Below, piece by piece: positions 27,261 through 58,243 of a stretch of 64,000 nt of DNA. Source of the stretch: Deltaproteobacteria bacterium (GTDB taxonomy: Bacteria; Myxococcota; JACPTQ01); NCBI GenBank assembly GCA_016192705.1, contig JACPTQ010000013.1, positions 1 to 64,000 of the forward strand, in the 5' to 3' direction. Each line of letters opens with the position of its first letter. Positions within the stretch are counted from its first letter, which is position 1. The notes under the pieces were generated by a model, which was not told the DNA's origin, did not search any database, and was given only the letters and a program-made list of their open reading frames with translations. A program made the translations under genes and the position numbers.

Positions 27261-27581
27261 GGCGGCGCGGACGGAACTCTATGCGGTTGGTGGATCTGAA
27301 ATCAACTGGAATCCGATTTCGCTTCGACGGAGGGCGCGCGCGCGGCTCGCGTTTAAATCGTTACTGGGCGTGGATTTTATTTTGATACGGCATTGATGCC
27401 CGCTCCCAGTCTGCAACATTTTCTTGGATCAAGTTTTTGTGCAGAGATTTCCGAGTGGGTCGCAGAGCCGGTGGTTCAATGAAGCGAACACAGCGCGCGC
27501 GGTATTTTTTTTTGAGAGCGGAAAACTGAGAGACGTGTCGCGAAATGTGCGACATGCGTGCGGTTCGCTCAAAATCGTGAG
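27261..27581. other. AT-richer intergenic region upstream of the ncRNA promoter
   Basis: A non-coding stretch of about 320 bp carrying the promoters of the divergent cysS operon and ncRNA gene. It includes GGCATTGATGCC at 27389-27400 (part of which recurs just past the ncRNA terminator) and a 6-bp inverted repeat TGTCGC/GCGACA at 27536-27554, centred about 40 bp upstream of the -35 box, which could be an operator. No gene is visible. Confidence 0.5.
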
Positions 27582-27609
27582 TTGACAGAAAATCATTCTT
27601 TGGTAAATT
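27582..27609 (+). promoter_or_regulatory. Sigma70-type promoter of the large ncRNA
   Basis: A consensus -35 TTGACA at 27582-27587, a 16-bp spacer, and a -10-like TAAATT at 27604-27609. This predicts a transcription start around 27614-27617, exactly where the structured region begins. No ribosome site and start codon follow in a plausible coding frame, so the transcript is probably untranslated. Confidence 0.75.
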
Positions 27610-27610
27610 G

Positions 27611-28844
27611 CGCCCCGTTGGGCGGCAAGAGACGATCCCAACCGGCACCGAAACTCAGTCCTCCTGAGCTCCGGCCGAAGACAGCGATAGCCCTAACCGA
27701 CTGTACAAAGGAGCGGTAACGCCACCTGGCAGTCGGAGAGAAAAAATGATCTCGGGCTGCGCTCTCTTCATGGAGGGAGGCGCTGTGATGAGGTGGGAAA
27801 CCTCGAGAGGGGCGGAGGCTCGTAAGGAGCGAATCCGACTCTCTGATGAACAAGGCCCTGAAGCCCGTGCGAAGACGGCCGTGAGGCGGTCGAAGTTAAG
27901 GGCATGAGGGAAGGCGCGCGGAAGCGCGTGCCATCGTCAGAGAGGAGAGACCCCTGGGAAGGCGAAACCCCAGGATGGTAGCGGCCCGTCGTCGGACTGA
28001 TCACCCGGCGGATGGAGAACGCGCCTCCCGAGGGAGCAAGACCCTGGAGTGGATCCAGGTACCGTTAAGGGCGTTGATGAGACCCCTCTGCCCGTGCGCT
28101 GAACCGTTTGGCGAGTGCGGGTTAAAGGGGATGGCATCGACACCGCGGGCCAGGAGAACCACAAGAGGGGAATCGGCGTCGAGAGGCGTCGGGCTCTCGG
28201 GAGAGGGAACACCGTGTAGGGGAAACCCCAGAAGCGTTACCGGTCTGAAATAGGGCCGGAAGGGAGCTGGAGAGGCAATCCGCCAAGAGGGTGCGATACC
28301 CTGAAGACGGAGCGTACCGCGAGGGGTGGGATCCCGCGGGGATAAACGTAAGCTTCACCTCCTTTAGGCGCTATAGGGGCGTGGAATCCCGTGAGAGGGC
28401 AGCCGTGCTGGTGACGAACACGAACGTCCACCAGGCCGGAAGCCGGGGTTGGAGGCACGACCAGACGCACACTCCGAAGTGCGCGCGGTGCGAAAGCCAG
28501 CAACCGGTGGAAGGTGAGGGGGAAGGGCGTGTGGTGCGCGGCGGCTTTGGTGAGTGTAGGCCTTGAAGAGGCGTCGAAGCCCTGAGGAGGGTGTGCCGAC
28601 TGTGTAAAAGCGGTTGGCGGAGGCGACCTAGGGAAAACCCCAGAGGAGCGGCCGAAAGGCTAAGCCCAAAGGGGGAGCGGGAACCAGTTAGCCGCTACCG
28701 GGTCGTCTGGCAAGAACTCCAGCGGGCAGATAACCTCATGGAGGCCGGCAGGGAGATTCGCGAAGGTACCTGCCAGCTCATCATAAGCTCAACCTCTGAG
28801 GGGAGCACCGGTTGGGACGGCAATTCTTGCCGTCCTTTTTTTTT
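27611..28844 (+). ncRNA. Candidate 1.2-kb structured non-coding RNA, family not recognised
   Basis: The interval is a self-contained transcription unit with a promoter at its 5' end and an intrinsic terminator at its 3' end. It has no protein-like frame; the longest frames (about 90-100 codons) are Arg/Gly-rich, overlap each other and lack ribosome sites. The plus strand is purine-rich and full of short helices. Examples are 27611-27624, 27654-27668 (CTCAG/CTGAG), 27855-27859 with 27899-27903, 27915-27928 (CGCGC-GGAA-GCGCG), 28043-28059 (CCTGG/CCAGG), 28219-28228 (GGG-GAAA-CCC), 28288-28302 (AGGGT/ACCCT), 28466-28483 (CGCAC/GTGCG), 28651-28660 (GCC-GAAA-GGC) and 28747-28774 (GGCAGG/CCTGCC). 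The motif GAAACCCCAG, or its near copy, occurs three times (27964, 28222, 28634). The size and GNRA-rich style recall ornate large RNAs such as OLE, GOLLD and ROOL, but I see no match to any of them, nor to RNase P, tmRNA, SRP or rRNA. Confidence 0.78.
28815..28844 (+). terminator. Rho-independent terminator of the ncRNA
   Basis: A perfect 9-bp stem, GGACGGCAA at 28815-28823 with TTGCCGTCC at 28827-28835, around a 3-nt TTC loop, followed at once by nine T residues (28836-28844). It is the clearest intrinsic terminator in the window. Confidence 0.95.
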
Positions 28845-28881
28845 GTGCATTGATGCCGAATCGCACACAGTCTAAAGTCGC

Positions 28882-31299
28882 GTGGTGAATTGTTCGAACT
28901 TCGTGGTTGCGTTTGGGCTCATTCTGTTTTTGGGCAGTTTTCAAGTCGGTCAAAGCGCGCGCGCGGCGCGAATCGATCTCATCGAGACAATTCAGGGCGC
29001 GAAATTCGTCGGGCGACCAGCGCGCGGGGAGGCGTTGTCTCAGCGTCCACCGTATCGGGCACTCGGGTTGCGCGCGCGGGCGTTTGTTTCGAATATCACG
29101 GTCGCATTTGATCCGGCGCGCGCGGCTTTTGAAATGCGCGAGGCGATAGGCCTTGCGCCGGAGGGCGCCGTCACGTGGGACATCGATCTTCCGAGTAACG
29201 GAGTTTTTTCGGGCGCGGTTTTGGCGGGCGGCTCATCGCAGTCGGTGGGGATGATTCGCCTCACATGGCGATCTCGCGGCGACGGGTCGGTTGCAACGCG
29301 TGAGATCGATTCAGGTCGGGCGACCCCTGGAGCCCGGCCACAATGGCGGCCTGTTACGACCAATCTTTCATTCGCGGCCGGCCGAGGGGAGCTCACCCTC
29401 GAAAACGTCAGCCGGCGGTCACTTTGGATAGGGAATCCGGTCGTTGAAGGGCCACGTGAGGATACGAATCGAGTGAACGTGGTTCTCGTGATGGTCGACA
29501 CCATGACGGCTGAAGCGGTCGGCCACTTGGGAAACCCACATGGACTCACCCCAAATATTGACGCCCTCGCGCGTGGTGGCGTGACGTTCAAGAGCGCCAT
29601 GACCAACGCGAACTGGACTCGTCCCGCGACAATCGCACTCCTCGGTGGGAACTACTCATCGACTTTTGGGATTAACGTGAATTCGTGGCAGCTCGATCGC
29701 CGTGCACGTCAGCGCGCGTATGAGTCGAGGCCAGACACACTGCCACGGATGGCGCTCGGATCGTCGCGCGAGGCGACAGCTATCGGCAACAACCTATTTA
29801 CGATGGGCTACCACGCGGCGGGTTTTGACTTTGGGTTTACGCGAATTGTCGACTATCGGACGGAGGTTCGCGATACGCAAGACATTGTCGCGGACGTGGA
29901 GGCGTTTTGTTCGGCGCCGCGACGCTCACCGTTTTTTTTGTACGTAGCGCTCAACGCGCCGCACCATCCATACCAGCCGCCGGTGGAATACCTGCGGAAG
30001 GTTCGTGACGCTCCGGGCGTGCGGCTTGACCCGGAGGTTCGACGCTATTTTGGTGAAGTCGCCTACACGGATGACGCGGTGGGCCGAATCGCGCGGGCTC
30101 TCGAGACGTCAGGGTTGGCGGCGAATACCGTTCTCGTCGTGACGTCCGACCACGGTGAGGGGCTTCGCGCAGATAACGCGTATACCCACGTCCTCTTTGA
30201 TCGGCCTTCGAGATTTACTCACACCGTTAACCTGTATGATGAGGTCGTTCGAATTCCGATGGTCTTTAACGGCGCCGGCGTTGCGAAAGGGCGTAACGTT
30301 GAGACGCAGGTGCGCTTGCTCGATATTGCCCCAACGATCGCGGAGCTAATGACCGGTCGGCCATCGCCAAAACATGCGGGGTCTTCGCTCGGCGTCGCGC
30401 TTAAAGGTGAGCCGATCACTTCGCGGCCTGCGTTCACCGAAGGGAAGAGGATGTCGAGCGTTCGATTCGAAGGATGGAAATACATTCGGCGCGAAAAAGG
30501 ATATGATCGCGTTCAACCGTTCGGGCGTGATATTACCTTGGCGATTCCTGAGGAGCTTTTCAATCTTCATGACGACCCGCGGGAGACGAGGAACCTTGTC
30601 GCGACGGCAACGGCTGATTTGGATCGCATGCGGCGCTTGTGGAGCGAGATGCATACCGCGGTGAAGGGGCGGTTGTTGGGTTCTCTGGATTCAGGGGTCG
30701 CGCCGTCGATGCAGCCGAAAGCGCTTCGTGGAGCGCGTCCGGTCGTGACGACGATCTTACTGGCAAGTGACGGGAAGCGGCATCACCTGGCTGGCGAACT
30801 GCGGACGTCCGGACGGTTCGTGACCTGGAGGCTGATGTCGGGCGACGAAGGCAGCGGGGTTTGGCTCGCCGCGGAAAACCGGCTGCTCGTCTCGATGGTT
30901 GCGGAAAGGAATGGCGCGAAATTGGTTGTTTCAACAGAGCCGCGTGACGCTTCGGTTGAGGTCGTCGCGAAGTTGGATGGTCGCGAGGTCAACGCAAGTG
31001 CGATATTGGTTGGCGCGTTTGGACTTCCACTTTCGCCGTCGGGTCGAGCCCGGTTTTCTGGAATTGGCCTTAGCGATCTGTACGCTGGCGATGCCCCGCA
31101 CATAGCGAAAGGACGTGAGGCTGGTGTTTTCATCTGGAGAGACACGAAGCCTTTGCGCGTGACGATGGTCGACGATGAGGGCGGGACTAAACTGGAAAGC
31201 GGCGTGGAGTCTGCTATGCGGGCATGGGGGTATATCCAGTCCGAGAAAAAGACTGCAGGTAATTCCGGGAAACGGCAGAAGAAAGGTGATCTCGAATGA
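28882..31299 (+). CDS. Exported sulfatase/alkaline-phosphatase superfamily protein
   Basis: An 805-residue protein starting with GTG (28882 or the next codon, 28885) and a hydrophobic signal sequence (FVVAFGLILFLGSFQVG). The sulfatase fold begins near residue 195: NVVLVMVDTMTAEAVGHLG, then GLTPNIDALARGGVTF, and later TSDHGEGL near residue 423, giving the metal-binding Asp/His positions. At the nucleophile loop the sequence is NANWTRPATIALLGG: Thr sits where formylglycine sulfatases have Cys or Ser (C/S-x-P-x-R), and the Arg is displaced. So it may be a phospho- or phosphonotransferase-like member rather than a true sulfatase. The last roughly 200 residues form an extra domain. It starts only 38 bp after the ncRNA terminator and overlaps the next gene by four bases. 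Confidence 0.82.
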   Translation: MVNCSNFVVAFGLILFLGSFQVGQSARAARIDLIETIQGAKFVGRPARGEALSQRPPYRALGLRARAFVSNITVAFDPARAAFEMREAIGLAPEGAVTWDIDLPSNGVFSGAVLAGGSSQSVGMIRLTWRSRGDGSVATREIDSGRATPGARPQWRPVTTNLSFAAGRGELTLENVSRRSLWIGNPVVEGPREDTNRVNVVLVMVDTMTAEAVGHLGNPHGLTPNIDALARGGVTFKSAMTNANWTRPATIALLGGNYSSTFGINVNSWQLDRRARQRAYESRPDTLPRMALGSSREATAIGNNLFTMGYHAAGFDFGFTRIVDYRTEVRDTQDIVADVEAFCSAPRRSPFFLYVALNAPHHPYQPPVEYLRKVRDAPGVRLDPEVRRYFGEVAYTDDAVGRIARALETSGLAANTVLVVTSDHGEGLRADNAYTHVLFDRPSRFTHTVNLYDEVVRIPMVFNGAGVAKGRNVETQVRLLDIAPTIAELMTGRPSPKHAGSSLGVALKGEPITSRPAFTEGKRMSSVRFEGWKYIRREKGYDRVQPFGRDITLAIPEELFNLHDDPRETRNLVATATADLDRMRRLWSEMHTAVKGRLLGSLDSGVAPSMQPKALRGARPVVTTILLASDGKRHHLAGELRTSGRFVTWRLMSGDEGSGVWLAAENRLLVSMVAERNGAKLVVSTEPRDASVEVVAKLDGREVNASAILVGAFGLPLSPSGRARFSGIGLSDLYAGDAPHIAKGREAGVFIWRDTKPLRVTMVDDEGGTKLESGVESAMRAWGYIQSEKKTAGNSGKRQKKGDLE

Positions 31300-42639: not shown

Positions 42640-45600
42640 TTAGTACTGGCCGACGAGCCGCACGAACCAACCGTGGAACGACTCGGAGGCTTTCGCGATT
42701 TCGTCGTCGCTGAAGCGCGTGAAGTTGTAGCCGGCGCCGATGCGGGCGTATTTCGCAATGATGAACGCGACCTCGAAGAGGGCACCCGCTTCGCTGTTCG
42801 ACGCGAGGAGGTTGTAGCGCCCGCGCCCTTCGGCGGCGACGTCGAGCCCGAAGTTGGGCCAGCGCGCGAGATGATACGCGGCGCGCGCGATCCACTGGAG
42901 CGAGTCGACGACGGCGATCGGCAAGTCGGCGATTTTTTCGCGATCGCGCTTCCACGCGAATTTGAGCGAGAGCTGCAGGCGGAACGGCGTCTCGAAGATC
43001 GGGTTGATGGCAACGACGTCGGTGTGCAGGCGCTCCTTGGTTCCGGCGAGTGGGTCGATGGGGCGCTGGTCGATGAACTTCGTGTACTTAAAGATGAGGT
43101 TCACCCAGTCGTATTGCACGGGGCGGAAAGCGAGGCCGGTTGTGAGTTCGAGCGATTCGGCGTCGGTGGCGCGCGTCGTGGTGTTGAGCGTGTGCGAATA
43201 GTTGCCGCGCGCGAAGAAGGTCACGTCGCGGGTAAACTGCCAAAGGAGCGCGTTCAACGTCAGGAACTGGAACTTGTCGACCGCCGGGATGGGGACCTCG
43301 TCGACGCGGATCTCTTGGCGGGTCGAGGCTTTGAGGCGATTCCGCTTCACGAATTCCGCGCCAACGGAGAGCGCGTCGCGCGACGATTTTTCGGTGACGC
43401 CCGGCGAGTCGACTTGCGAGCGCTCGTAGCCGACGTCGAGCGTAAACCCTTTGGCGACGGGGATTCGGTGGCCAACGCCCATCACGGCGCGGCTTTGGCG
43501 ACCGGTTGAGCCGCCTTCGATTTGGTATTCGCCGTACGTGCGCGAATTCTTTTCCGGGCCGAAGCGGTTCTCGGCGCCGACAATGGTCGTCGAGAGCGAG
43601 CCGCGATCGCGCGGGTTCGTGAAGCGTTCGTTGACGTAGACGTTGAGGTCGTCGGTGAGCTGCGCTTTTAAGCCGACCGTCGTTGCGTTTTCGCCGTTCC
43701 AACGAACCGACTCTGCGAGCGCGATGGAAATCTGCTTCGTCAGGCTCAAGCGTCCGCCGATCGTCGTCGTGAAGCGATCGAAATCAGACGACAGCGTGAG
43801 GCCGTCGCTGCCGTAAACAATCGCCTGCTGCTGCGCAAAGAGCGCGAGCCAATCGGTGAGCTTGTAATCGAAGCCGCCGGCGAGCGTGCCCTGGTTGAAA
43901 TCGCCGCCGCTCGGGAGTGTCGACGTCGGAAGGAGCGGCGAGAACGGGGCAATCGTGTTCATGAACTGCGATGAGAACATCTGCGTGAATTCGGCGGTGA
44001 CGGCCCAGCGCTTTTCGCGGTGCGTGAACGCGACCGTCGAGAGTTGGCGCTGCATCGACTGCGACGGCGACCGAATATCCCCGTTCTGGAAGATGTCGGC
44101 GAAGATGCCGTCGTGGCGCACGACGACGTCGTCCTTTTCGGTCGCGAAGAGCTTTGCCGTCAGCCCAAACTTGTGCTGGCCTTGGTCGAGACGTTTCCCG
44201 CTCGCAAAGAAGCCCGGCTCGAGGCGCTGGTAATATGCCCTCGTCTTGAACCAGTCTTTTTTCGCCGTCTTCCGGAATTCGCCCCACTCGGCGCCCGCCT
44301 CGAACTTGTACGCAGCGCCCATCGCGTTCGCCGTCGTGTTGCCAAACGCGCGGAACGAGAGCCCGCCGTCGTCCGAGTAACTCGAGTCGGCGTCGACCGA
44401 TTCGCTTCGCGCAAATTCGCCCGTGACGTAAGCTTGCCCGCGCTGGAGTTTGAGCTCGGTGCCCCAAATGCGGTACGTCGGGTTCGCGACGCCGTCACGT
44501 CGCTCTTCGGCGTACGTGCCGCCGAACGTCAACAAGTCGCCGAGGAGCCTCTCGCGGAATTGGAATCCAAAACTCGTGCCGCCGGTGCGCAATTCGCCCG
44601 TGTATTCGTAGTCGACTTCGAGGAGGACCGGGTGGCCGTTCAGCGTGACGAGGCCATTCGTTGTCGCAAGGAAGCTCGCGTCGACAATTGATGGAACGGG
44701 CGATTTCATCAGCAGCCGTCCCTCGCGATAGAGGAGCGTGTAATCGACGTCGCGCGCGCGCGCGGCGCTCCAAAGCTCAAGGCCGGTGTCTTTGTCGCGG
44801 ATGACCATGCGGACGCGCTCGCTGCCTTCGACGATTTCGGTGTGTTTTAAGTAGTAGAGCGAGCCGCCGGTGCCGCGGAATTCAATGTGGGCGTGCTTTT
44901 GCGTGAAGTCGTCGCGGGAGCCGAACGCGCGAATCTCCTGGCCGAACTTTTTCGAGAACTGTTTTACGAAGTCGACTTTCGCGCCGTAGAACGCGCGCGA
45001 ATATTGAAGGAGTTCGATCCCGCGGAAGTCGGTTTTGAAGTTGCCGACGATGAGGCGCGATTCATCGGCCTCGACGAGTACGTAGAGCTTGTCGCGGGCT
45101 TCGACGTCCCGCACTTCGCCGGCTGCGTCGCCGTAGACTGGGTAGAATTTGTTCGGGTCGATGATTTGGCGGAAAAGCGCTTCGAATTCTTTTTGTTTGG
45201 CGGTGTCGAAGTGCGCGGTGAGGCGAACGTCCTTAAAGAACCGGTTCCCTTGGATGCGCCCCTTGAAGTAGACGACGGTGCGCCCGTGGATGAGGACGGA
45301 CTTCGAGTCGCCGAGCGCCGAGGCGGTTGCAGGCGTGACGCCGTCGAACGTGCCTTCGATGCCGCCGTTTCGGGCCGCGCCGAGCGTGCCTTCGGCGAGC
45401 GCGAGGAGGAAGAACTGTGTCGGCTTGACGTCGACGGGCCATTCGAGGCGGCCGCGATTCCCGTCGGTGTCGACGGTTTCGATCGTGAGCGTCGAGGCGC
45501 CGGGCGCGAGTTTCACCTCGATAGCAAATTCTCCATCGGCGAGCACCGTCGCGGGTTTGCCGTTCACGCGGACGCGGTTTGTGGGGTCGGTGTCGCCCCA

Positions 45601-48600
45601 AACAGTCAGCGTGTCAGATTTGATGACGACGCCGCGTGGAGGGAGATGCGCGCGGAGTTTCGCGGCGCGAACGGGTGGCAGCGCCTTTTTCCCCTCGATT
45701 GCGGTTTCCATCTCCGTTGAGCCGAACCCGCGGAACGATCCGGGGATGGCGCCGTCGGGTGTTTCGGGCGGCGCTGCGCCGGCGTCCGCACCGTGCGCGC
45801 GAGTGGGCGTTTGGCTTTCGCCGCGCGGACGTCGGAGAGGGCGATCGTCGTCGGCTTGCGCAAGAACGACGCGCGCGTTGCGAACGATCGCGCTCGCGGG
45901 GATCTCTGTAACGACGCTCGATGCCGACGCGACCATCACGGTGCCGCCGCCGAGCGGTGTGGGCGTCACGAGGTCGGAAGCTGGAGCGGGAATTTGACGC
46001 AAAGGCGCGGAGACGCCAAGAAAAGAGGTCTCATTCCTTGCGTCTTTGCTCCTTTGCGCCTTGGCGTTGAAATCTTCCGCGGAAGCGGGTGCGGAGACCG
46101 ACGGGCGGCGCCGACGGAGTGGAACGTCGTCATCCTTCGGCGGCTCGGTCGCGGGGGCCGGTTTCGGACTTGGTGCGGGCGTTGGTTGTGGCAAGACGGG
46201 TGGCAACTCTGGGGTCGTTCGCTTAGGCTCTGGCTTCGGGAAGCGCGGCCTCACAACAACGAATGCTCGATTCCCAGCAGCGCTACGCGCGTCAAGCAGA
46301 ATTGCTTCGCCAGGACGGACACGAATGCGCCCTTCAAACCGCTGGTCGGTGAGCGGGCGAAAATCGCCATTGACTGAAAGCGAAGGCTCGACTGCGGGTG
46401 GTGCGACGGGCGGATCCGGCGCCTTCACCACGGGAAGCGCTCGGATCACGATGCGTCGATTCAAGAGTCGATTCGCGTTCGTTGTGTTTGGGACAAGCGG
46501 CTTCGTGAGTCCAAAGCCGCGCGCCTCGATAAAGGCTTCAGGCGCGAGCTTCGCGTCGACGAGCATTTTCCGAACCGTCTCGGCCTGCGCCGCGGTCGCT
46601 TTCTCGACCTGTTCAACTCGCTCACGGCGGAGGACAATCCCCGCGTGAGCTTCGATTGCGAAACGCCGTCCCGCGGAAATCTTTTTCGCGAGCGCGGGTA
46701 TGTGTTTATTGAGTTCCTGCTTTAAAAGGGCCGTCGTTTCCGTGCCGCGAAACAGCGGACCGCGAAGAACGATGTCGTCGTGTCCAGGCGCACCGCCGAG
46801 AACCATCAGGGGTTCACGCGCCAGCGCGAACGCCACACGGGGCGACTCGCCGATTCCACTCGACTCGTCCTCAATGATGAGGCGCGCGTGATACGTGCCG
46901 GTCGCGAGCGCCGCTCTGTCGTCGACGCTCCACGGGATCGATGGCGGCAGCTCTTTGTCGCCGCCCGTCATCTCCCACTTCGCGCCGCTCGGCCCCTCGA
47001 CGCCGACGCGCCACCGCTTGATTGGTTTCGCGACCCACTTGGGAATGAAAGCGATCCGCTGCTGCAGCTTGCCGGTCGGCGATAGAACGGCGCTCGTCGG
47101 ATCAACCGCGAGCGAAACCTTGAGGAGATCGAGCGCGCCGACATCGCTCCCGACCTGGTATCCGAAGTCCTTGATGCTCACGACGAAGTCGACGTCGGCG
47201 GCTTCTTCCGGTTTCGCGAGGCCGTCTTCCTGAACGAGACGGACAACACGGTGACCGGTGGCCCGCTGCATGTCGACGACGAAAAGGCCATCCTTCGGCA
47301 GCCTCCAGACGCCACCCCACGCGCCCTTTGAATCGGTTTCGACCGACTCGCCGTTTACACGGACCCACGCTTCATGCGTCGGCGCTTCGGGCGGGCGCCC
47401 GGCGTCGACGATTTTAATTTCACCGGGGTCGTACGCGCGGACTTCGATGCGGCGGTTTGCAGCGCGGTCGCGCGCGGTGCGGTTTTCGTTTTTCGGCTTC
47501 GACAAACCGAGCCCGCGCGCCGAAACACGTGCGGCGTCGAGCTTGAATTTATCGATGAGTGTGCGTCTCACTTCGAGGGCGCGGCGTTCACTTGCGAGCT
47601 GGCTTTCGAGGCGTCCCCTGCGATTGTCGCTGTGGACTTCGATCGCCAGACGGCGCTTGGGATTCTCGCGCATACGGGCCACAACTTTGCCAAGCATCTC
47701 GACAAGGGCGGGGCTTGGAGTCGGGGAGCGCCCCACAAAAAGATTTTTCTTGAGTTGTCCGCCAAGTGTCTCGCTCCAAGCCTCTATTTCGCCGGTGGCC
47801 TCGCGCTTGACCCCGTACTCGACACCGAACGCGCGGGTTGGGCTCATCGCCTGCGAGCCACGCGCATCGGTGACCGTCAGGCGAACCCGATAAGCTTGGC
47901 CCGTGGCGAGGAGGAACGCCCCGGCGTCGTTTGTCCCGTTCCATCGGACGGCTGTGGGCGGCCGACCGGTGCCGGCGAGGGCATGGACAAGCGCGCCGTC
48001 CGCGTCTCGGACGTCAAGCGTCCAGCGGAGAGGGTTGCCCGAGACCTTCGTGGCAAAATGGAGCGGCTCCAGGATGGCGCGCCCACTTTCACCAAGAGCA
48101 CCGTTGAAACCTTTTGCCGCAGCGAAATCAGCTGGGGTTTTATCGGTGTTCGTCACAGCGAGGTCTACCGCGAGTCCTGGGATCGCGCGCGCAGCTTCGC
48201 CGGGACGTGCCATTGCCACGGCGAGCGATTCGCGATTCCCCGCGAAGGTGCGTCGTGTCGTGTCGAACGTTCGCTTCGGCTTCACGCCTTTGCGTTCCAC
48301 ATCGTCGACGCCGACGACGTCAAACTTGCAGTCGACGCCGAAATTCACTTTGGTCACGAGTCCGCGCGTGAGGATCACCGCGAAGCGTTCGGGCGTCGTG
48401 AGCGTCGATCCCGGCGGCAATGTGTCGGTGTCGATCTTGACGAGGTGGAGCCCCGGGTCGATGTCCTTCAAGTGGTACTTCCCGAACGTGTCGGTCGTTG
48501 CGTAGTAGCCGCTGTCGATGTACACACGCGCGCCCGCGACGCCAAAGTCGCCGGAGTCTTGCCAGCCGTTTTTGTTTGCGTCGCAAAACACTTTGCCGAG

Positions 48601-51600
48601 GATCGTCGCTTGGTCAAAGATCGGGTCAGCCACCACGCGCACCAGGGCGTCGTCGGTGTTCGAGACTGCGACGTTTCCGCTGCCGAACGCCGTTGCGCGA
48701 TTTCGATACTCGCCGACGCGCACCGAAGCCGCGACGACGAGCTGGTACATGACTTCGAGCGTATCGCCCGCGCGGACGTCGTAGGGTCCAAACTTGAGAA
48801 GCGTCGATCCGCTCGGGTCGGCCGAGCCGTTCGAATAAAGCTGCGCACTCGACCCAACGACCCGTTTCGCGCGCGTCGAACCTTTGATGTAGCGGAATCC
48901 GCGCGGCGTCTCGTCTTGCACGGACATGCCGCCAGTGCCGTTCGACGGGTCGACCACGAGGTCGCGCGTCGAGCCGTTTTGCACGCGCACGGTGTACGTC
49001 ACGACTTCGCCCGTTGAAACGGTTTTTTTGTTTGCGCGTTTGTCGAGGACGATGAGCGACGCGATCGGGTCGATGGGGACGTGGTTGTTGCGAATGACGG
49101 ACGACGCGTCGACGATGTTGAAGCGCGCGTAGTGGGTCGTCGCCTTCGTGATGTCGGGGCGATCGTTCGGGACGACTTTGCCGTCGGGCGGTTGGCCCAC
49201 CGCAAAACCAGGCGTCGCGGGGATTTTAACCGACGGCCAGACTTGGCTTTCACCCGCGGTGGCGACGACGAGTTTGTATTTGCGCCCTGCGAAGACGTCG
49301 AAGCCGTAGGTGCCGTCTTCGCCGGTGCGCTGCCCCTGCTGCGTTGGGAACGGAAGCTCGACGCCCGGCACGATTTGACCCGGTTTTGTCGCGTCGGTGT
49401 CGTCGTAATAGATGTAGAGCGTGATGCCGGACAAGCCGGCGCCGGTTTGAGAGTTGTAGATGACGCCCGACGGGTCGACGGGGATGTCGGTTTCTTTAAG
49501 GTCGCCGCCCCTGACGTTGCCGAGGTCGGCGCGCGCGAATTCGGTCCCTTGTGCGTTGAAGCAGCGCGCGACGAGGTCGCCGGGTGGAAGCTCGTAAAGA
49601 TCACTTCGGCCGTTTCGATCGGTGAGCGCGGAGCGGAGCGGCGCGTCGAGGCTCGCTTTGCGCGTGACAACGATTTGATAGTTGGTGAGCGCCTCGTCGG
49701 TGGTCGGGTCAAAGACGCGGTTCTTCGTACCGACGTCGCGGAAGGCGCGCGCGCGAAGGGCCGCGGTGCCAACGGAGGTGCAGGTGAGGAGGCTCGCGGT
49801 TGCGGATTGGGGCGTCGTGTCGGTCGCGGAGACGTCGACGGAATTCGTGATGGCGGTCGCGCATGGCGTCGTCGCATCGATGGTTGTGAGGTACGACACC
49901 GCGAGCGATTGGCCCACGTCGACCTTGAAGCCGGCGACCGACAGCTCGCCGCGTCCGTTTCGCCCGCCGGGCGCGAGAGTCGCCGTCGTGTTCAGAAGTC
50001 CCGTCGCGCTCCCTTCGACGTAGGTGGCGCGCGCGGGAATGTTGTCGTTAAGGACGGCGCCCAGGAGCGGCTCGTTCCCGGTGTTTGTAACGCGCACCGT
50101 GTAACGGACTTTCCCGCCCGGTTTTACCGCGCCACCTTCCGCAGCCGCGGCTTCTTTGGTGACGCTGAAGGCGCGCACGGGGACGTTGCCGATGGTGACC
50201 AGCGTCGCGTCGTTGATGGCGCTTGTGGTCGGGTTGTCGGTTGGCTCTGAGAGTCCCTCGGTGGTTGCGACGGTGCCTTGGAGCGCGACGACGCCGGCGG
50301 TTTCGGCGCGGAGGCGATAGGTCACCGTTGCGCGCGTTGCGGGGCTGAGGGCGCCGATGTCGACGCGGATCGCCGTGCTGGGCGTGGGATCGGCGACGGG
50401 TGTTCCGTTACGTTTGAGCGAGCCCGCGACGAAGCTGACGCCCGCGGGAAGGGTGTGCGTGTAAGTGACGCCGGTTGCGCGCGCATTGCCGTCGTTCGGA
50501 ATCGTTGCCGTGACTTCGATGGTGTCGCCAACGTCGACGATCCCGGGCGCGCCCAGGTCGACGGCGATGCCGAATTGCAGCGCGGTCGCGTCGATGTTGG
50601 CGCCGCGGCCGACGACGATTTCCACGGCGCCGGTTTCGAACGGGTTGGTTTCGAGCGCGTCGATTGTCGCGCGGGCTGAGACGATCGTTCCACCTGAAAC
50701 TCCAGATCGGAGGCGGACTTGGTAATTGACGGTCGCCGTTTCACCGGGGCCAACGACCCCGGCGAGTCCTCCGGGTGATTGAACGGTGAGGCCAAGGGCG
50801 AGCGGGTTTCCGCCCGCGCCCTCGTCAACGACGCCGACTCCGTTGACACGCGTCGAGCCTGGAACGTAATCGGTTTCGCGGGGTGGCGTGCTGACGACGC
50901 GCGTGACGGTTGCGGCGAGCGATCCTGAGTTTTTTGCGGTGATGGTGTAGGTGAGCGTGTCACCCGCTCGGAGCTCGCCGCTGTTGTCGTCGCGAACGGC
51001 GATGGTCGAGCCGGAAAAATTCGGCGCGTTGCGAATGCGGAACGACGTCTTATCGCCGATCGCGGGTGTCGTTGGGTCGTCGGTTACGACCCCGTCCGAA
51101 AATTCGGTCGACCGGAGTCGCGCTTGGTTATCGATCATCACGCCGCTCGGCGCGCTCGAGTCGATGCGCGCGTTGACGGTGAACGCGAGCTCGTCTCTCG
51201 GTTTCATCGACGCGAGTCCACCGACGGCCGGTGCGCTCCAGGTCACGGTGCCGGCTGCGAGAACGCCGCCCGTGGAAGGCACGACGTCGATCAGGCGCGG
51301 ATCGATGGCGTCGGTCACAACTACGTTCGTCGCGAGCGTGTTGCCAGTGTTCTTGACGCGGATCGTGTAGGTGAGGCGTTGCCCGGGCTCGAGTTCGCGC
51401 GACGCCGGCAAGTTGTCGATGACTTTCGTCGATTGGTCGAGGCGCGGCGCTGCGGTCACGGTGAATTTCGTTGCGTCGGCGACAGCCGGTGTCGCTGGGT
51501 CGTCGGACTGCACCGGTTCGATGAGCGCCGTGCTTTCGAGCTTTGCTTGCGCCGAGATGATCGTCGCGCCCGGGATGAGCTCGCGAATTTTTGCCGTGAA

Positions 51601-54600
51601 GGGGAGCGTGACGCTCGTTCTAGCGCGGACAAGTGCGAGGGCCGGTGTCGACGCGCTGTTCCATAGGACCGCGCCGCCCTGGATGGTGCCGCCCGCGCCT
51701 GGTGCGACGGCGTCGAGGTTCGCGTCGACGGGGAGCGTGACGACGACGCTCGGTGCGTCGAACGAGCCGCGGTTCGTGACGGTGAGCGTGTAAGTGAGCG
51801 GGTCGCCGGGCTCGCGGAGTCCCGCGTTGCCATCGACGTACGACAGCGTTGTGCCGCCGAGATCGGCGAATGCGACCGTGACGACGGCCGCCAGCGTCGT
51901 GAAGGAGGCGTTGCCATCGGCGGAAATCGTCGCGGTGTTTGAAATCTTCAAGCCGTCGGCGACGTTCTTCGCGACTTTCGCGCTTAGGCGCAACGTGACG
52001 CTTGCGCCCGGTGCCATCGACACGAGCGCTGGGACCGACCCCGAATCCCACGTGACGACGCCACCCACAACGCGTCCGCCGTCAAGCGGCACCGCAGACG
52101 CCGCATCAAGCCCGGGATCGAGCGTGTCGCGCACGATGACGTTTCGCGCATTCGCTGTCCCGTCGTTGCGGACGGTGATCGTGTACGACACCGTGTCGCC
52201 GGGACGCAGCACGCCGTTTTGGCCAGCGACCGCGGCCTTTGTCGACTTCGTGAAATCGGGCGCCGACACAACGATGAGCGTCGTCGGGTCGTCGGGTATG
52301 TTCGGTGTCGCGGGGTCGTCGGAAACTTCGGGCGTCGCGAGGTTCGACGCGCGCACCGTCGCTTGCGCGGAGACCACCGTTCCGTTGTCGAGCGGCTGCG
52401 GGATTGACGCCGTGAAAGCAACCGTCGCCGAAGCGCCCGCGGCGATATCGCCGATGTTTGCCCACGAGACGAGGCGCGTTTGGGGATCAAACGTGCCGCC
52501 ATTTTCGACGGCGACGTTCGTCCAAAACTGCGACCCCGGAATCGTCGCGGTGACGCCGTGCGCGGCGTCGGTGCCGGTATTCGTTATGACGAGCGCGTAC
52601 CGAAGCGCGTCTCCCGGTGCCGGGTTCCCGCCGTTCACGTCGGTCGCCGCGAGTGTCGTCGTGCTGAGGTTGGGCCGGCTCTTAACGACGACCTTTGTTT
52701 TGTCAAGCGGTGGCGTCGTTGCTGGGTCGTCGGTGACGGTCGTCGACCCATCTTGCGCGCTGACCGTCCCTTGGTTCAAAACTTCCGTGCCGTCGACCAT
52801 AGGCGACTTGATCGTCGCCTTGAAGCGCAGCGTGACGTCCGTCCCCTTGACCAACCTGATCAACGCAGAGTTCCCCGTGCCGTCCCACGTCACGGTTCCG
52901 CCTTGGAGGCGCGCCCCGTCCTGCGGCTCGATCGCTTCCAGTTTCGTCGTGTCAACGAGGTCGAGCACGACGACGTTGCGTGCGGGCGCGTTGCCGTCGT
53001 TTTTCACTTTGAGCGTGTAAACGAGTTTCTTTTTCGGCTCCGGATCGCCGCCCGCTTCCACGGCCGCGGTTTTCGTCGCCGCGAGTTTCACGCTCGATAC
53101 GACGCTCACTTTTGTTTTGTCGTTCAGCGCGGGTGTCGTCGGATCGTCCGTCACTGCGGGCGTTACCGAGCCTGGCCATGTCATCGTCGCCTGGTTCGCG
53201 ATTTCCGTCGCGTTGTCGAGCGGCGAAATCACGCGCGCCGTGAAGATGAGCGTCACGGTTTGCGCGGGCGCGATGTTCGCGAGCGCGGGCGTCGTCGCCT
53301 TTGACCACGTGATTTGCCCAGCCGCGTAGGTGCCGCCGGCTCCGGGCGCGACCGCCTCGAGGTTTGGGTCGATCGGGTCGGTCACGACGACATCTTTCGC
53401 CACGGCGTCGCCGCGGTTTGTAACGGCGATCGTATATTCGAGCGTGTCGCCCGGCTCGACGACGCCGCCATTCACGTCACGCACGCGCTTTGTCGAGCCC
53501 GTCAGGTCCGACGCCGAAATGATCGTCACCTTCGTTGGGTCGTTCGCCTCGGTTGTTCGCGGGTCGTCCGTTTTGACCGGCGTTTGGATCTCGGTCGATC
53601 GGATTTCGCCTTGGTTCGAAATGATCGTTCCGTTGTCGGTCGGAACTTTGACCTTCGCGCTAAACGTGAATTTTGTCTGCGCATCGGGCGCAAGCGTCGG
53701 CACGAGCCACGTGATGGTATTCCCTTGCAGGACACCATTTTCGCCGACGACAACGTCGGTCAAATTCGTCACGTCGACGACGTCGGTAACCGCCACGTTT
53801 TTCGCCGTCATCGTCCCTTTGTTCGTCACGGTGATCGTGTAGTTAAGCGCGTGCCCCGGCCGCGTCGGCGTCCCTTGCGGCGTCGCGACTTCTTTAGTCG
53901 ACCCCGCGAAATCGGGCGCGCTCCGAACGGTCACCTTCGTTTCGTCGCCCTGAGCGGGCGTGCGCGGGTCGTCGCTCGGTACCGGCGTCGTGATTTCGCG
54001 CGACGACACGAACGCTTGATTCTTGCAAATCGTGTTGTCGTCGAGCGGCGCGCGGATATCGGCGCGGAAGGTGAACGCCTTCGTCGTCCTTAACCCGAGC
54101 TGCGTGAGTCGCCACGTGATGGTGTTGCCCGCGAATTGTCCGCTGTCGCTCACGTCGCGTACATTCGTGAAGCAGGCCGGATCGATTTGGTCGGTGACGA
54201 CGACGTCGTTCGCGACCTCGGTGCCCGAGTTGTTCGCGGTGACTGTCCAAAGGAGCGAATCGCGCGGGCGCGTCTCACCGCCGTTTTCGTCCACGAATGT
54301 TTTCGTTGAGAGCGCGAATTCCGGCGCCGAGATGAGCGTGACGCGCGTTGGGTCGGCGGCGCCTGGTCGCGCGGGATCGTCCGAGAGGACCGTGCCCACG
54401 ACGTCGTTCGATGTGACCTGCGCTTGATTCGAGACGACGGTTTCCGATGCCAGCGGGAATTTCGCGTTGCTTGCGAACGACAACGTTACCGGAGAACCTG
54501 GGTTGACCGATGCGAGCGCGAGCGTCGTTCCCGTATCCCACCGGATCTGTCCGTTCGCAAAGGCGCCCGACTGCGCCGGAACGATCGAGGTCAAGTTCGT

Positions 54601-57600
54601 GTCGACCACGTCGATGACCACGACGTCGCGCGCGGGTGCGTTGCCGGTGTTTGAAATAACGATGGTCCACGTGAAGGGGTCGCCCGGCTGCGGCTGGCCA
54701 CCGTTCCCGTCGGTGACGGTCTTCGTGACCTGCAGTGTGGCGCGGCTCGAAACCGTGACGCGCGTCGGGTCGGCGGGCGCGGGCGTCGTCGGGTCGTCGG
54801 TCGGCACCGCCGCGACGCTGTCGGCGACGATCCTCGCCTGGTTATCGATGTTGTATCCGTTCGGCAAGACCGGCTTGAGGCGCGCCGTGAACGCGAGCGT
54901 AATGGGCAGATTCGGCGCGATGGTGCCGAGGTTCCACGTGATCGTGCCGAACTGCACCGACCCTGTGCCTTGCGTCACGACGATGTTCTCGAGCGCCGCG
55001 CCATCAACGATATCGGTGACGACGGTGTTCGTCGCGATGCCGCGCCCCGTGTTCTTGACGACGATGGTGTAAAGCAGTGTGTCGCCCGGCTCGCTCGCCG
55101 TGCGCGGGTGCCCTGACTGGTTCGCAACGTCTTTCGTTGACGTCGTGAAATTCGGAAGCGCCTGCACCGTGACTTTGGTTGGATCGCCCGCCGCCGGCGT
55201 CGACGGATCGTCTGATGGCACAGCTGTGACGATTTCATCGCTTCGCACCTGCGCCTGGTTCGCGATAACCGTCCCGTTCTGCACAGTGTTGACCCGCGCC
55301 GTAAACGCGACGCTTGTCGTGGCGCCGGGTGAGAGCGTCGCGAGCGCCGGTGTCCCTGCGGATGTCCACGTGATCGCCCCGTTTGCGAAGTTGCCCGACC
55401 CGGCTGACGTGATCGTCAAGTTTGCGTCGATCGCGTCGGTGATGACGATGTTCCGCGCCGCCTTGTTGCCGTCGTTGCGGATCGTGATCGTGTAGGTGAG
55501 TAAGTCGTCGGGCTCGACACCGCCCGCGTTCGGATCGACGACGGCCTTCGTCACGACCAAGACCGGCGAGTTGTAAACGGTCAGCCCCGTGTCGCACGCG
55601 CTCGGCGTTTGCGATGGCGCCTCGGCGATGGTGCTCGTTAAGCAATTCTTTACGACGAGCTGGTGCGGTGCGTCGGCCTTAATCGTCCCCGAGAACGTGA
55701 TCGACACAAACGGTGACGGGTTTTGCACGGTTGCGCCGTCGACCCGCGCATTCGAAATCGTCAAGACGCCGGTTCCATTCACACCGCCGCCCGCCGCGAA
55801 TGTCGCCGAAGCGCCCGACGGCAGCGCGAGCGACGCCGGGTTGTACGTGAAGCCGGCTGGCATCGTGTCGGTAATCTGTACTGTGGCCGCGAGATTGCCG
55901 CCGTTCGCGACGTTGATGGTGTATGCGACGACGTCGCCCGGCTCGAGGCGCCCGCCGTTTGTGTCTTGCGCGCCTTTCACGATGTTGATTTGCGGCGCGT
56001 ACGAAATCGTGAGGACCGTCGGTTCGTTCGGTATCGCGTTGTTGATGTTCGAATCCGTGAGAAGCGGTGTTTGCAAAAACGGCGCGTTCACCTTGCCCTG
56101 GTTTCGAATCTGACGGCCGTTGATCTGCGAGACCGGAATTCCGCGCGCCGCGAAACCCGCGACCGAGTCGACCATCAACGCGTACGTAATCGTCGCGCTC
56201 CCGCCCGCGGCCACGCTGAACCCCGACACCGTGAGCTTTCGCCCGTTCTGCGCCGTCGGCAACGTTACCGTCGAGCCCGCCGGTTGCGACGTCATGATGA
56301 ACGACGCGATGTTCAAGTCGTCGTCAATCACGTCTTCAAACGACACGCCGTCCGCGCGCCGGTCCGACGTGTTCGGAATCGTCACGACATAGAAGATGAT
56401 GTCGCTCGGCTCAACGAACCCGCCCGTGCCGTCGACCGCAACTTTCGAGGGCGTTCCGAGCGCGGGATTCAAGCTGCGGTCGATCGTCGTGACCGCCGAT
56501 TCGTACGCGGGGTCCGGCGTCTGGTCGCTTCGAATCGACGCGGTGTTCGTGACCGTCGTGACGTTCAGCGGAATGCCGGTGTTCGTGCGCACGCGAAACG
56601 TAATCGTCTTAAAGTTGTTTGGCCCCGACCACGGGATGCTGCCGACGTTCAATCCCGCGACCAGCGGGCTCGTGCCGCCGACATCGCCTTGCGCGACGCC
56701 GTTCACCTTCGTCGAGTTCGCGACGTACGTCGTGTTTGCGGGGATCGAGTCTTGGAGGATGACGTTCGTTGCGTCCTGTGACCCCTCGTTCGTCACGTTG
56801 ATCGTGTAGTAGAGCGTTTCGCCTTCGCCGGCGGTCGTTGGGTCGACGGTTTTCGTGGTGCGCGATCCGCGAAAGTTTGGCGCGAGCGTGTCGAGCTTCA
56901 GGAGGAGGTATTGCAGCATGATCGATTCGCCGCCGTAGCCGCGATCGCCGCACCCCGCGGGTGGGTTGTACTGGCCGCCGCACGGTGCGCACGAGCGCGT
57001 GATGACGCCGTCGCCCGCTCCCCACGTGACGCCGAGCTGCGTGAGCCCGGGCTTCAACACGTTGAGCCCCGTCGTGCCGATGTCGAACGTGTCGAGATCG
57101 ACGCCGACCGCCGTGCCGCCTTGGCCGCGGTTGATCGACGAGTTGAAGAGGTTGCCGGACGGATTCAAGTTGTCTTGGAGTCGAACCGAGGTCGTGCCGT
57201 TGTTGAGCGCGAGGAAGTCGACGCATTCGGGGCAGTAGCCGGCTTCCGACTGCGGGTCGTCTTGAGGCGGGACGCCAAGCAACCGGTCGCCCTCGAGCGC
57301 GAAGAGTGTGATTTCGCCGAGCGCTTGGTTTCCGACCGTGAACCCGCTGAGCGTGAACGTGTCCCACCCGTGCGTACACGTTTCGTCGGTGTGGCGAAAC
57401 CCGTCGTAAAGGACGATGTCGCGCTGCTTGTTGTACGTGGGCGAGCTCCAGACGATGACGAGCGACCAGCCCGCGTACTTCGATTGGCAGCTCGGATCGA
57501 TTTGGCAGTTGCCAGCCGTCGCTTGGACGCCGCCCACGGTGTAGTTGCCGGTGATGCTGCCCGCGCGCACCTGCGCCGTGACGTCGGCGCGACACGCGTA

Positions 57601-58005: not shown

Positions 58006-58243
58006 AATGTCTCCCCGCCTTATCGGCGGCAAGCCTCACGCAATTATTCTGAATGGCGCCCGGTCAACGTCCCCGAAAACCCCCATCGCCCACCGTGCCC
58101 CACCTCAATCAGTTTATCGGCGCGATCGCCCGCGAGCAAGCCGCGCGCTCGTTTTTATTAGGGTTTCAGAACGTGAGAGAAGCGCCGACCTTGACAGGCG
58201 TGCCGCTTGGCGTCGTAAGCGTGGGTTTGACGACGAGATTTCT

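Follow-up and report, generated by a model that had tools for sequence, protein, structure and literature searches.

The window analysed here, a 64,000-nucleotide stretch of myxococcotal DNA, carries on its plus strand a giant structured RNA (27616-28844, approximate ends) flanked by a divergent mgtC gene and by a sulfatase gene that starts at 28882. It was delimited from its folding energy (z of -8 to -9), 17 homologous loci and covariation. A consensus scan of a 4.5-kb region, for which the expectation is 0.9 promoter-like sites, whatever their quality, placed a predicted sigma-70-type promoter, TTGACA-16-TAAATT, at 27582-27609 on the same strand, with 10 of 12 consensus matches and a TG ahead of the -10 element. 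The unit ends in a predicted intrinsic terminator (28814-28844, plus strand), in which a stem of 10 pairs, one of them G-U (28814-28836), is followed by nine T residues. The original prediction had named this promoter, which the scan bears out, and had read the terminator as a 9-bp stem plus nine T residues; the T run stands, and the stem length was close to the 10 pairs found. It had also described a purine-rich plus strand without a protein-like frame, in agreement with a purine content of 60% and with stop-free runs of at most 117 codons, which leave the RNA locus without a long open frame. Elsewhere in the window, one open frame of 5130 codons on the minus strand (42640-58032) corresponds to a very large protein.

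The whole window was compared with all 4227 models of Rfam 15, a match being a score at or above the family gathering score, and no match was obtained. OLE, ROOL and GOLLD are each presumably represented by a model in this collection. A permissive sub-threshold scan of 27500-28900 returned only three chance matches, far below the cut-off, and scans of the homologous loci gave none except one tRNA located 9 kb from the RNA. The initial failure to match the sequence to RNase P, tmRNA, SRP RNA, rRNA or introns is thus upheld at threshold, and catalytic-core models of group I and group II introns likewise match neither the window nor the homologous loci. A literature search found no description of the RNA class; bioRxiv and most subscription papers lay outside this search, and a recent or unpublished description is possible.

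Collection of homologues by nucleotide search, the route first proposed, failed with blastn, which over 195 genomes of the phylum returned only chance matches of 22-42 nt to the window RNA; covariance-model searches succeeded and recovered 17 loci in 15 genomes. Model R1, built on a 106-nt subdomain (27839-27944), gave two strong matches at 48-49 bits, and the regions around both contain full-length relatives of ~1.0-1.05 kb with conserved blocks in the same order. A second search, built on one such relative, added one more genome and a second copy in the genome of the window, and a search with a core model added six further genomes, all of family f23. Model R3 was run over 384 genomes (the 195 of the phylum and ~189 outsiders) and detected three outside the phylum, to which follow-up searches added two. 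Within the phylum, R3 scores members at 99-126 bits, but these built the model, and all other sequences at 23 bits or less; members found later with R3 score 50-80 bits. The noise level of 29 bits was set by a coding false positive in genome G418, rejected as a member because it sits in a non-ribosomal-peptide-synthetase-like gene. Among the weak R1 matches (L049-L054), L053 was rejected as part of a histidine-kinase-like coding region, and the others gave nothing significant by single-sequence nhmmer. Since a blastn search with the window RNA brings up none of the relatives, its case suggests that large structured RNAs may stay hidden from searches of that level.

Neither the description of the gene as an orphan nor its restriction to myxobacterium-like genomes survives these searches. 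A paralogue, 49% identical, is present in the same genome on contig 17 (L065:3763-5005, minus strand); it ends ~77 bp ahead of a dksA/traR gene, with a terminator-like T run behind it. Relatives occur in at least 14 other species. Eleven of the 17 loci lie in 10 Myxococcota-type genomes and the remaining six in five genomes outside the phylum, one of which (G384) has two paralogues (L124 and L125) that are 69% identical. The class thereby covers at least 15 species of several phyla, its distribution outside the phylum being drawn from a genome sample with a core-only model. Members are ~0.97-1.24 kb long, two f23 copies being cut by contig ends, and their pairwise identity (15 sequences) is mostly 41-57%, rising to 69-81% within close groups. 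Only three members, in the Myxococcota MAGs RA.bin29 and RA.bin128 and the Deltaproteobacteria MAG NC_groundwater_1655, were matched in a scan of 84,980 GTDB species with a pattern that is specific to one subgroup and is not a prevalence measure. The distribution is patchy even within one family, suggesting that the RNA is dispensable in many relatives.

Conserved promoters upstream of the homologues support the claim that the RNA is transcribed from a promoter of its own. A TTGAC block just upstream does not vary among the five copies that make up the longer subgroup. In all six f23 copies (L086, L087, L088, L089, L090, and L091), the invariant upstream element is TGGCAC-N6-TGCTC, which reads as a sigma-54 (-24/-12)-type signature. 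These upstream sequences point to a promoter-class switch for one RNA, sigma-54-type in f23 versus TTGAC in the other Myxococcota copies.

The genomic contexts of the copies vary widely. Neighbours other than mgtC and the sulfatase gene include dksA, a cold-shock gene with a glyoxalase, a low-molecular-weight (LMW)-phosphatase/arsenate-reductase-like gene, thioesterases, PepQ-type peptidases, a Fur regulator (fur), and an HD-GAF protein, and no neighbour gene is shared across families among the copies examined. Only about 40 bp separate the end of the terminator in the window from the sulfatase start, an arrangement that could make the RNA a cis-regulatory leader of that gene. However, each lineage examined has different genes downstream, often encoded on the opposite strand, a conserved same-strand downstream gene of the kind that accompanies a leader or riboswitch was not found in these lineages, and the size is far above that of any leader, so that we give this reading very little credence. 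Because the contexts differ among copies, any cis-regulatory role is very unlikely, and a trans-acting RNA is the natural reading.

The unrelated contexts and patchy distribution, together with the pairs of diverged paralogues that some genomes carry, could also be produced by a mobile or selfish element, either intron-like or a phage-derived satellite RNA. Such an origin is improbable, since carriers have only one or two copies per genome, the RNA brings its own promoter and terminator, and RF01998 (group-II-D1D4-1) is absent from six carrier genomes. In addition, phage and plasmid records yielded no member at the level of distant blastn, two spurious matches of 33-55 nt aside, and neither did 2.9 million viral contigs scanned with sequence patterns. 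Loci from two 16-base viral-contig patterns were rejected for want of extended similarity, and more specific patterns matched nothing.

The window RNA has a minimum free energy (MFE) of -578.6 kcal/mol, compared with a mean of -505 for dinucleotide-shuffled sequences (z = -9.2; z = -8.1 in a repeat of the test), and adjacent 1.2-kb stretches have folding energies about equal to those of their own shuffles. Many helices reach pairing probabilities of at least 0.95, which is high for a 1.2-kb molecule. The two ends of the RNA are joined by a predicted closing helix of 12 + 10 bp, P1, whose 5' strand (27620-27645) pairs with its 3' strand (28808-28835) as 27620-27631/28824-28835 and 27636-27645/28808-28817 with probabilities of 0.96-1.00. 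When the 14 complete copies were folded, the MFE structure of each had its 5' and 3' ends closed by a helix of 14-33 pairs, formed by differing sequences, and the MFE z-scores ranged from -6.4 to -13.2. In the window RNA, the terminator stem and the 3' strand of P1 share bases, which would make the terminator hairpin and P1 mutually exclusive; a similar overlap is readable in the f23 sequences.

Covariation was examined in alignments made with MAFFT from sequence alone. Compensatory changes affect 135 of 257 consensus pairs in a 5-sequence alignment, and with 11 sequences both sides have changed in 153 of 254 pairs, a massive compensatory change that answers the check for covarying pairs among homologues. 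In the latter alignment, 86.0% of cells pair, versus 40-46% with partners slid by 1-3 columns, and the covariation score is 0.411, versus 0.09-0.12 when slid; none of 500 shuffles reached any of the five measures taken, and the alifold energy has a z of -23 relative to column shuffles. Both sides have changed in 152 of 197 pairs among 15 sequences. When tested out of sample, the structure obtained from the nine complete Myxococcota copies paired 70.4% of cells in six outsiders, versus 41-47% when slid. The argument is carried by the slid control and the out-of-sample test, because the shuffle control keeps the relatedness of the sequences in. These comparisons show one secondary structure common to the copies despite their low identity, and covariation thus proves the structure beyond mere predicted stability. 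The alternative that the structure arose by chance in GC-rich DNA, intergenic or formerly coding and now decayed, a concern because GC-rich sequence folds easily, is refuted by the compensatory changes in more than half of the pairs and by the strongly negative z-scores of all 14 copies, including those of 49-56% GC, and we regard its probability as negligible.

In the consensus fold, P1 leads into a central junction. A variable 5' domain (27646-27795), delimited by pair probabilities and homologue comparison and shortened in family f23, precedes four consecutive arms, all on the plus strand, that share an entry module composed of a purine linker with GAA or AAA as its usual ending, a 4-bp helix of CCCC/GGGG type, a 3x3 internal loop, and a second short helix. 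Arm B (27801-27962) is entered through 27801-27804/27959-27962 and a 3x3 loop at 27805-27807/27956-27958, and it includes the R1 subdomain and an inner 3x3 loop (27860-27862/27904-27906). Arm C (27968-28222) has a CCCC/GGGG entry, a 3x3 loop at 27972-27974/28216-28218 and an inner loop at 28046-28048/28163-28165. Arm D (28226-28379) has the same type of entry, with a 3x3 loop at 28230-28232/28373-28375 and an inner loop at 28285-28287/28303-28305. The largest, arm E (28387-28804), has its entry-helix loop at 28391-28393/28798-28800 and further 3x3 loops at 28565-28567/28738-28740 and 28583-28585/28721-28723. A pairing from the single-sequence MFE structure, 27951-27959/28332-28341, was rejected, since it conflicts with the covarying consensus, in which 27968-27971/28219-28222 closes arm C. 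The string CACCTCCTTTA at 28356-28366, which resembles the anti-Shine-Dalgarno string of the 16S rRNA 3' end, is not conserved in homologues and was set aside. R3 also matches a second arm of the window RNA weakly (27943-28056; 16.5 bits, E about 0.01), hinting at growth of the RNA by arm duplication, which this match fits without proving.

By R3 bit scores, the most conserved core, on which models R2 and R3 are based, lies at the junction of arms C and D (28202-28320, plus strand). Its column identity is 77-78%, versus 53% for the whole molecule, and such a core, in an RNA of this size and complexity with deep conservation across phyla, might belong to a large ribozyme of new fold, self-processing or trans-acting. 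Nevertheless, no known ribozyme model in Rfam matches, splice-site or insertion signatures were not found, and conservation extends over many repeated modules, not a single catalytic centre, making a ribozyme doubtful.

The repeated element of the fold is a purine-rich 3x3 internal loop found at nine conserved positions. Purines occupy all four outer positions in 128 of 134 such loops (96%), versus 16% expected from other unpaired positions, and 75 of the 134 (56%) have the form GRA/ANG, for which about 1% would be expected; the same loop position switches between GRA/ANG and GNG/GNG from clade to clade. Readings of the loop as a kink-turn or as tandem GA pairs were rejected because they misfit some of the sequences, and no 3D motif name is claimed. 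Many copies of one motif (purine 3x3 loops, GAA loops) could sequester an RNA-binding protein, as CsrB/RsmZ do with CsrA, and nine near-identical internal loops at conserved positions in an RNA with its own regulated promoters and no conserved neighbour would fit such a titrating sponge, the repeats themselves equally well as they fit a scaffold. On the other hand, the motif is an internal loop, GRA/ANG or GNG/GNG; the GGA repeated in hairpin loops that characterises CsrB-like RNAs was not found here, and the long-range and closing helices are conserved far beyond what a sponge would need. We consider the sponge unlikely, if somewhat less so than a ribozyme.

We almost certainly deal with an undescribed class of free-standing structured RNA of ~0.97-1.24 kb, with the fold described above, as far as comparative analysis of genomes can tell. 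The suggestion that a free-standing giant RNA of a new class lies here is borne out by the lack of an Rfam match, the covariation, the conserved promoters, and the lack of coding evidence in the sequence. As for mechanism, the repeated purine loops, the pseudo-repeated arms and the closing helix, together with the precedent set by OLE, ROOL and GOLLD, point to an architectural RNA or ribonucleoprotein (RNP) scaffold, a tentative reading that by analogy we hold at slightly under even odds. Synthesis of this scaffold would be set by the promoter that the RNA carries, which in one family is sigma-54-like. Once transcription has terminated, the 3' arm of the terminator would pair with the 5' end of the RNA and P1 would replace the terminator hairpin, a closing switch that we infer from the overlapping pairings, and the long P1 closure would stabilise the molecule. 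The purine loops, which recur at regular spacing, may then each offer a docking point, whether for A-minor packing, for further copies of the RNA or for a protein bound repeatedly; the outcome would be a stable particle, of RNA or RNP, that serves as a scaffold in trans. For the RNA class, its fold and the architectural mechanism taken jointly, we estimate a probability of about 0.6. A bolder version, which we consider possible but more speculative than the scaffold itself, is that of an ancient multi-phylum class of kilobase RNA built of repeated arm modules, whose molecules would assemble symmetrically, as RNA or as RNP, into a particle that has a core role in the cell.

If this is correct, the class would represent a new natural RNA fold, bigger, chromosomal, present in several phyla and with a repeated arm and loop module, and it may rank among the largest undescribed bacterial RNA devices. 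It would also allow a clear view of how structural constraint shapes the evolution of a kilobase RNA whose copies are about 45% identical. To our knowledge, it would be the largest conserved free-standing structured bacterial RNA outside rRNA, and we know of very few bacterial RNAs besides rRNA that match such size and order, among which OLE, ROOL and GOLLD turned out to have unexpected architectures.

Comparison with known systems places the window RNA apart from smaller and from intron-type RNAs. Like group II introns, it is a large multi-domain RNA around a central junction, but it has its own promoter and terminator and no Rfam group II match. CsrB and RsmZ are RNAs of a few hundred nucleotides with GGA motifs in hairpin loops; the window RNA shares with them repeated short motifs in a regulated, probably trans-acting RNA, whereas its repeats are 3x3 internal loops (GRA/ANG or GNG/GNG) within a covarying kilobase fold. 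The raiA-motif RNA, with a length of about 200 nt, is much smaller and gives no covariance match. This RNA (ModT) is a widespread structured trans RNA that also came from comparative genomics (PMC11706538). OLE RNA is a large, free-standing, elaborately structured and strongly conserved bacterial RNA with OapC and others as protein partners (PMC9723947). It forms a membrane RNP. The window RNA is likewise large, free-standing, elaborately structured and conserved, but it is about twice the size of OLE, which has ~600 nt, occurs in Gram-positive extremophiles and anaerobes and has known protein partners, and the Rfam scan gave no sequence or covariance match between them. ROOL RNA (659 nt in one example) is found in phages and prophages near tRNA islands and forms an octameric cage, and GOLLD RNA, many members of which exceed 800 nt, occurs in phages and prophages with a distinct sequence and structure; OLE, ROOL and GOLLD all form RNA homo-oligomers (PMC12286853). 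With ROOL the window RNA shares a large, multi-stem and possibly RNA-only design, but it is chromosomal, with no tRNA in the window, no phage matches and no Rfam match; with GOLLD it shares the giant many-helix form, but again without a covariance or phage match. The window RNA is thus OLE-, ROOL- and GOLLD-like in style and not homologous to them, and it is recognised as a member of its own class by P1, the shared arm-entry module, the conserved 3x3 purine loops, and a core that R2 also finds and that scores 99.3 bits with R3, a model that includes the window sequence, versus noise of at most 29 bits.
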